Below are positions 1,191-1,368 of a stretch of DNA of 16,446 bases, one piece after another; the first letter of the stretch is position 1, and every line of letters begins with the position of its first letter. The translations under genes were made by a program, and so were the position numbers. Source of the DNA: Nitrospirota bacterium (GTDB lineage: Bacteria > NPL-UPA2 > JAADIA01); the NCBI GenBank assembly GCA_013151555.1, contig JAADIA010000013.1, forward strand, positions 1-16,446, read 5' to 3'. The notes under the pieces are model-generated. The model was given only the letters and a program-made list of their open reading frames with translations. It did no database searches and was not told the origin of the DNA.

Positions 1191-1222
1191 TCTGTCCTTT
1201 TTCTAAGCATGGTGATTAAAAA
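1191..1222 (+). promoter_or_regulatory. Candidate upstream activator element of the nifH promoter
   Basis: This 32-nt stretch matches 10353-10384 upstream of amt1 at 29 of 32 positions, and both copies start exactly 162 nt before the T of their TGGCAC box. It holds a TAAGCA half-site (1204-1209) between a T-run and an A-run. That position, near -170 relative to the predicted start, suits an enhancer for a sigma-54 activator of the NtrC/NifA class. It matches neither the NifA TGT-N10-ACA site nor the usual NtrC site, so the activator is unidentified. Confidence 0.5.
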
Positions 1223-1303
1223 GGGTCAGAAGATGTTGGGGATGAGGGTAAGGCAATGATTTAAAGAGTCGGAAAAGATGTTGTAGTTAAGAGTTTGTTT
1301 ATA

Positions 1304-1336
1304 AACTGCTTAGGTAAATCCTGAGCAGTTTTTTTT
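1304..1336 (+). terminator. Intrinsic-terminator-like hairpin just upstream of the nifH promoter
   Basis: Arms 1304-1314 and 1320-1330 pair over 11 positions (ten Watson-Crick and one G-U in RNA) around a five-base TAAAT loop, followed by eight Ts (1329-1336). It could end the flavoprotein/rubrerythrin transcript. The same structure with the same spacing precedes the amt1 promoter, so the arms, which carry CTGCTTA and TGAGCAG half-sites, may instead or also bind a regulator. Confidence 0.55.
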
Positions 1337-1352
1337 GTTATCGGGGAGAAGC

Positions 1353-1368
1353 TGGCACGCTATTTGCA
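1353..1368 (+). promoter_or_regulatory. Sigma-54 (-24/-12) promoter of the nif operon
   Basis: TGGCACGCTATTTGCA matches the sigma-54 consensus TGGCACR-N4-TTGCW at every defined position. The GC of the -12 element is at 1366-1367, placing the start of transcription near 1379 and leaving a leader of about 79 nt before nifH. Sigma-54 promoters need an ATP-driven activator and are typical of bacterial nif and ammonium-assimilation genes. Confidence 0.92.

Follow-up and report, generated by a model that had tools for sequence, protein, structure and literature searches.

A palindromic operator upstream of nitrogenase and ammonium channel promoters suggests joint control by one NtrC-type regulator in a poorly sampled bacterial phylum

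The window analysed here is the whole 16,446-nt stretch of DNA, taken from the source genome (G000) of an uncultivated bacterium, which comprises 1.81 Mb in 99 contigs and is ~94% complete. It carries a nitrogenase operon (nifHI1I2DKENB), an ammonium channel gene followed by glnK (amt1-glnK), and a second ammonium channel gene (amt2), each preceded by a predicted sigma-54 promoter (Table 1). At promoters of this kind, transcription begins ~12 nt past the GC element and needs an activator ATPase. RpoN itself is encoded in the genome (PF04552 on C59, E 8e-63), where the promoter pattern TGGCACGNNNNTTGC has 46 matches at ≤1 mismatch, as opposed to 14 for its reversed control.

Table 1. Features of the nif and amt control regions (window coordinates unless a locus is named)
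Feature	Position	Strand	Basis or remark
nifH control region (copy 1)	1191..1368	+	77% ungapped identity to 10353-10530
nifH extended operator	1199..1223	+	0 mismatches to 25-nt operator; 8/13 arm positions symmetric
nifH core palindrome, TAAGCA-TGG-TGATTA	1204-1218	+	149 nt upstream of TGGCAC
Intrinsic terminator-like hairpin and T-run	1303..1331	+	12-pair GC-containing stem; -17.3 kcal/mol, z -6.6
Predicted sigma-54 promoter, nifH operon, TGGCACGCTATTTGCA	1353..1368	+	exact TGGCAC-N5-TTGCW match
nifH, first gene of nifH-I1-I2-D-K-E-N-B	1458..2276	+	PF00142, E 8e-126
amt1 control region (copy 2)	10353..10530	+	matches copy 1
amt1 operator	10361..10385	+	match to 25-nt operator
amt1 core, TGAGCA-GGG-TGATTA	10366-10380	+	149 nt upstream of TGGCAC
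Predicted sigma-54 promoter, amt1-glnK	10515..10530	+	identical to nifH promoter
amt1, ammonium channel	10683..12059	+	ORF; 62% identical to amt2
glnK, after amt1	12157-12498		PF00543
amt2 operator	12544..12568	+	third and last genome match at ≤3 mismatches
amt2 core, TAAGCA-GGC-TGCCTA	12549-12563	+	221 nt upstream of TGGCAC; 10/13 arm positions symmetric
Possible weaker second amt2 operator, TGAGCA-GGG-GGGTTA	12569..12583	+	2 mismatches to dyad; could be chance
Predicted amt2 sigma-54 promoter, TGGCACAGAAGTTGCT	12770..12785	+	1 mismatch to TGGCACGNNNNTTGC; full TGGCAC-N5-TTGC match
amt2, second ammonium channel	12962..14215	+	ORF and homology
Amt-GAF-kinase fusion and NtrC-type regulator of G007	L192 (G007:C104) 1820-4459 and 4477-5916		

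The original prediction held that nifH and amt1 share a duplicated control region preserved in register, and the alignment bears this out: 137 of 178 bases are identical without a gap, at a constant offset of 9162, while the runner-up 178-nt place in the window scores 76/178. The distal element agrees at 29 of 33 positions over 1191-1223 (29/32 over 1191-1222, as first reported) and begins 162 nt 5′ of TGGCAC in both copies. Outside the block edges the likeness drops to background in ~20 nt on both sides. A whole-genome search returns the 191-nt block only at nifH and amt1, and the full-length block is absent from 97 other genomes, which give short chance matches only. Since the spacer too is 64% identical, far above chance, this is a true duplication, and the two regions are copies of one ancestral control region. 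Their divergence is markedly uneven: identity is complete in the 16-nt promoter (100%), high in the distal element (88%) and the promoter-proximal part (86%), intermediate in the hairpin's 5′ arm (75%), and lowest in the spacer (64%), which shows that certain parts have been kept by selection. Judged from these values, constraint is concentrated in the distal element, the promoter-proximal part, and the promoter, so that both duplication and selective constraint, as originally proposed, are supported.

Within the distal element, the half-sites TAAGCA/TGAGCA had been taken as the recognition unit. That view is not supported; the predicted unit is instead a 15-bp palindrome, TRAGCA-N3-TGMYTA, with T-tract/A-tract flanks. 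A 25-nt operator, TTTTYTRAGCAKGGTGATTAAAAAK, was derived solely from the nifH and amt1 copies, leaving amt2 unused. At ≤3 mismatches it has exactly three matches in the 1.81-Mb genome (starting at 1199, 10361, and 12544), where 0.009 are expected from base composition and the reversed control gives 0, and all three lie upstream of the sigma-54 boxes of nitrogen genes. In the corresponding 27-nt segments, 8 (nifH), 8 (amt1), and 10 (amt2) of the 13 arm positions are symmetric; across the whole window, 0.7%, 0.7%, and 0.04% of positions, respectively, reach these values. Around the operator amt2 is the most diverged copy, yet its palindrome is the most symmetric, which fits binding by a dimer.

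The original prediction also stated that the half-sites resemble neither NifA nor NtrC sites, and indeed neither the NifA site TGT-N10-ACA nor, at ≤2 mismatches, the NtrC site GCACY-N5-RGTGC is found in the 300 nt that precede any of these nif and amt promoters. NrpR and GlnR sites are likewise absent from the three regions, and IHF-like matches are scattered at positions not common to them. Elsewhere in the genome, 28 other sigma-54-like sites were examined over their upstream 300 nt; none has an exact dyad there, and one has a one-mismatch dyad, which falls inside an ORF. Five other exact core dyads in the genome all fall in coding ORFs, and a one-mismatch dyad 5′ of a poor TTGCAC box on C23 falls within a 102-aa ORF.

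The pairing of nifH with amt1 is therefore real, but the earlier account missed a third, diverged copy upstream of amt2. The alignment of the amt1 and amt2 upstream regions beats 1000 of 1000 shuffles, whereas that of nifH and amt2 is not significant alone (58 of 1000 shuffles reach the same score); the membership of amt2 consequently rests mainly on the operator. The possible second amt2 operator sits 201 nt upstream of TGGCAC. Between the operators and the gene (window 12670-12720), there is a perfect 8-bp inverted repeat, CCGGAGGT...ACCTCCGG, which has no T-run and overlaps the GAGCCGGA block common to the other copies.

The same copied region and palindrome at nif, amt1, and amt2 point to a single regulator, probably ammonium-responsive, and the originally suggested joint activation of nif and amt is in this sense probably correct. 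The genome encodes ten complete sigma-54 activators, nine of the NtrC type (REC-AAA-Fis) and one of a PAS type (C28), along with an eleventh gene cut by a contig end (C89). No GAF-AAA-Fis NifA is present among the ten complete activators of this ~94% complete genome; given its incompleteness and that of the C89 gene, NifA could be missing from the assembly.

One regulator stands out. Encoded on C83 in the order GAF histidine kinase, NtrC-like regulator, CRP/FNR-family gene, it contains PF00072, PF00158, and PF02954, adjoins the gene for a GAF-HisKA-HATPase kinase, and scores best of the ten against the NtrC model TIGR01818, although short of the equivalog cut-off (525.9 vs 558.6 bits). Its reciprocal-best orthologue in G007, a genome of the same phylum, is 66% identical and is encoded directly behind the gene for an 879-aa ammonium transporter-GAF-histidine kinase fusion, whose kinase half shares 59% identity with the C83 kinase across 436 aligned positions. 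It is the only activator found with an orthologue tied to an ammonium transporter. An Amt-kinase fusion is a known ammonium sensor in Kuenenia (PMC5764959), and the G007 fusion ties the C83 pair to ammonium sensing. The C83 NtrC-like regulator and its GAF kinase are the most likely activator of the three promoters. Matching sites in the activator's own promoter had been named as a feature to look for; around the C83 kinase and regulator genes neither the operator nor a sigma-54 box is found, and autoregulation accordingly lends no support.

Taken together, we consider it likely that nif, amt1, and amt2 are all driven by the same NtrC-type two-component system acting through the common operator, with the C83 pair as the likeliest activator. 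The three sigma-54 promoters (nifHI1I2DKENB, amt1-glnK, and amt2) would be under one enhancer-binding activator that reads TRAGCA-N3-TGMYTA, at sites 149, 149, and 221 nt before the -24 element. Under a shortage of fixed nitrogen, the phosphorylated NtrC-type response regulator would bind the palindrome as a dimer, assemble a ring, loop to RNA polymerase-sigma-54, and open the promoters, such that nitrogen fixation and ammonium capture would be switched on together. Ammonium would be the signal, and amt2 would carry a more diverged version of the ancestral control region. Against a single activator stands the different distance of the amt2 operator (221 vs 149 nt).

It is possible, if somewhat unlikely, that the common operator is instead read by another activator, which could be any of the eight remaining NtrC-type regulators or a NifA encoded in sequence missing from the assembly. 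The inventory of ten complete activators and one cut gene in a ~94% complete genome leaves room for such a protein, and a one-mismatch dyad (TGAGCATTTTGCCCA; L182, G000:C91, 5439-5453, minus strand) lies behind an NtrC-type activator gene, between it and a receiver-domain gene, 200 nt upstream of a sigma-54-like box. However, the C91 dyad misses the extended operator at 3 mismatches and is about at chance level, the NifA site is not found upstream of the three promoters, and C83 is both the most NtrC-like of the regulators and alone in having an orthologue tied to an ammonium transporter. A relict duplication without common regulation, in which the likeness reflects common descent only, would account for part of the resemblance through the homologous spacer, but is very improbable in view of the uneven divergence and of amt2, which is far more diverged elsewhere and retains the palindrome in its most symmetric form.

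The hairpin between the operator and the promoter calls for a different assessment. The T8 hairpin had been described as occurring in the same register in both copies; the register holds, but the structure is not conserved. At amt1, C-to-T and G-to-A changes weaken the stem in this register, and the fold prefers a different 5′ arm (-9.4 kcal/mol, z -2.3); a terminator scan lists the nifH hairpin only. The amt2 region has no conserved hairpin and no T-run. A common regulatory part that is strong at nifH, weak at amt1, and absent at amt2 is thus not supported. With the upstream rubrerythrin gene ending at 1189, the nifH hairpin is most likely the terminator of that gene, carried along in the copied block. 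We give little credence to a transcribed RNA element (a small RNA or attenuator), comprising the hairpin and distal element and copied before both operons: the T-tailed hairpin at nifH is strong, and a 144-nt stretch at nifH is more stably folded than its shuffled versions (z -3.2), but the amt1 stretch is not (z -1.4), amt2 lacks the structure, an Rfam search of the three regions gives no match above chance, and the hairpin precedes the sigma-54 start instead of falling in the leader.

How widely is the operator distributed? Conservation of the block or operator in relatives, a check named in advance, is not seen outside the source genome. nifD is in no other genome of the phylum, and in the two phylum genomes with amt the sigma-54 box and operator are both absent. 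Related nifD genes from other phyla, mostly Firmicutes, were examined at 80 loci; a sigma-54 box precedes nifH at nine of these, and the dyad is absent from all nine. The extended operator, sought at ≤2 mismatches in 385 other genomes, yields one isolated match whose neighbours have no evident nitrogen role. Because neither the amt loci of these two genomes nor these nine nifH loci carry it, the source genome is the only one in which the predicted operator is known. NifD shares no more than 62% identity with its closest matches, most of them from Sporomusa and relatives; this distance, together with its absence from other members of the phylum, fits a gene gained by transfer and then brought under a nitrogen promoter already resident in the genome. 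Copying probably ran from amt to nif. A more elaborate history can be envisaged, in which ammonium sensed at the membrane sets nitrogenase transcription: the GAF kinase would derive from an ancestral Amt-kinase fusion that was split and would still be signalled by Amt channels, its NtrC-type partner would activate nif, amt1, and amt2 directly through its own palindrome with no NifA, and nif would have been captured by copying of the amt promoter region. Taken as a whole, this scenario is rather unlikely.

The proposed single-regulator arrangement has parallels among known systems. Like NifA-activated nif promoters, it combines a sigma-54 -24/-12 box, a remote palindromic activator site, and nifH as target; NifA systems, however, have TGT-N10-ACA and a GAF-AAA-Fis NifA, neither of which was found here at the three promoters or among the ten complete activators. 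NtrB/NtrC control of glnK-amtB likewise involves an NtrC-type regulator, an amt-glnK target, and a site far upstream of a sigma-54 promoter. There the site is GCACY-N5-RGTGC, whereas here the palindrome is different, a GAF kinase is the likely partner, and nif itself has the amt site instead of being reached through NifA. In Geobacter, nif is controlled by the NtrC-type GnfM with no NifA known to take part, a likeness to the present two-component candidate. Desulfovibrio vulgaris, with many sigma-54 activators that have their own palindromic sites and mostly small regulons, also places distinct palindromes upstream of tGGcacg/tTGCt promoters (PMC4641369). Its nif genes are assigned to a one-component regulator, DVUA0143, which has been compared with AnfA/VnfA (PMC4641369), while the candidate here is two-component. 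Ks-Amt5 of Kuenenia (PMC5764959) resembles the G007 orthologue of the candidate sensor in joining an Amt domain to a histidine kinase, and differs from the separate GAF kinase of the source genome, which has no Amt part.

The suggestion of an undescribed activator-site type is weak as a claim of novelty, considering the great diversity of sigma-54 activator sites: in D. vulgaris, 16 of 33 activator motifs are unlike any other (PMC4641369). It is common for such activators to have palindromes of their own, and nif and amt would be expected to come under joint nitrogen control. The unusual points here are the presence of the amt operator at nif itself, where no NifA is evident, and the link to an Amt-kinase sensor. 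The arrangement is known; what sets this case apart is the operator and the apparent direct control of nif. These features suggest a route by which a nitrogenase operon is wired into existing ammonium regulation in one step, without NifA, through copying of a promoter-enhancer unit. They also name an operator and a candidate sensor-regulator pair for a poorly sampled phylum.

Several further observations concern leaders and other sigma-54 boxes. The nifH leader has a second hairpin followed by T-rich sequence (1383-1418, AAGCCT...AGGCTTTTTTCGTTTTTT; z -3.0), possibly an attenuator or mRNA-stabilising element, which is not shared with amt1. The leader of glnA, directly after amt2 (14216-14372), has no sigma-54 box and no operator and folds better than shuffles (z -2.6). 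A search of the source genome for ANTAR antiterminators gave no match, but its controls gave none either. A third exact copy of TGGCACGCTATTTGC lies on the minus strand of C28 (L159, 127-141), between the gene for the PAS-type sigma-54 activator and another whose product begins MKMPGGDGTGP, a gene arrangement that we take to resemble the Desulfovibrio ORP operon. Standing beside the PAS-type activator and having no operator, this identical promoter was rejected as a further nif target. Many TGGCACGAAAATTGC boxes (L003-L032, G000) precede genes for signal-peptide proteins, perhaps a PEP-CTERM-type exported set, and one box like these stands before a GroEL-like gene (L010).
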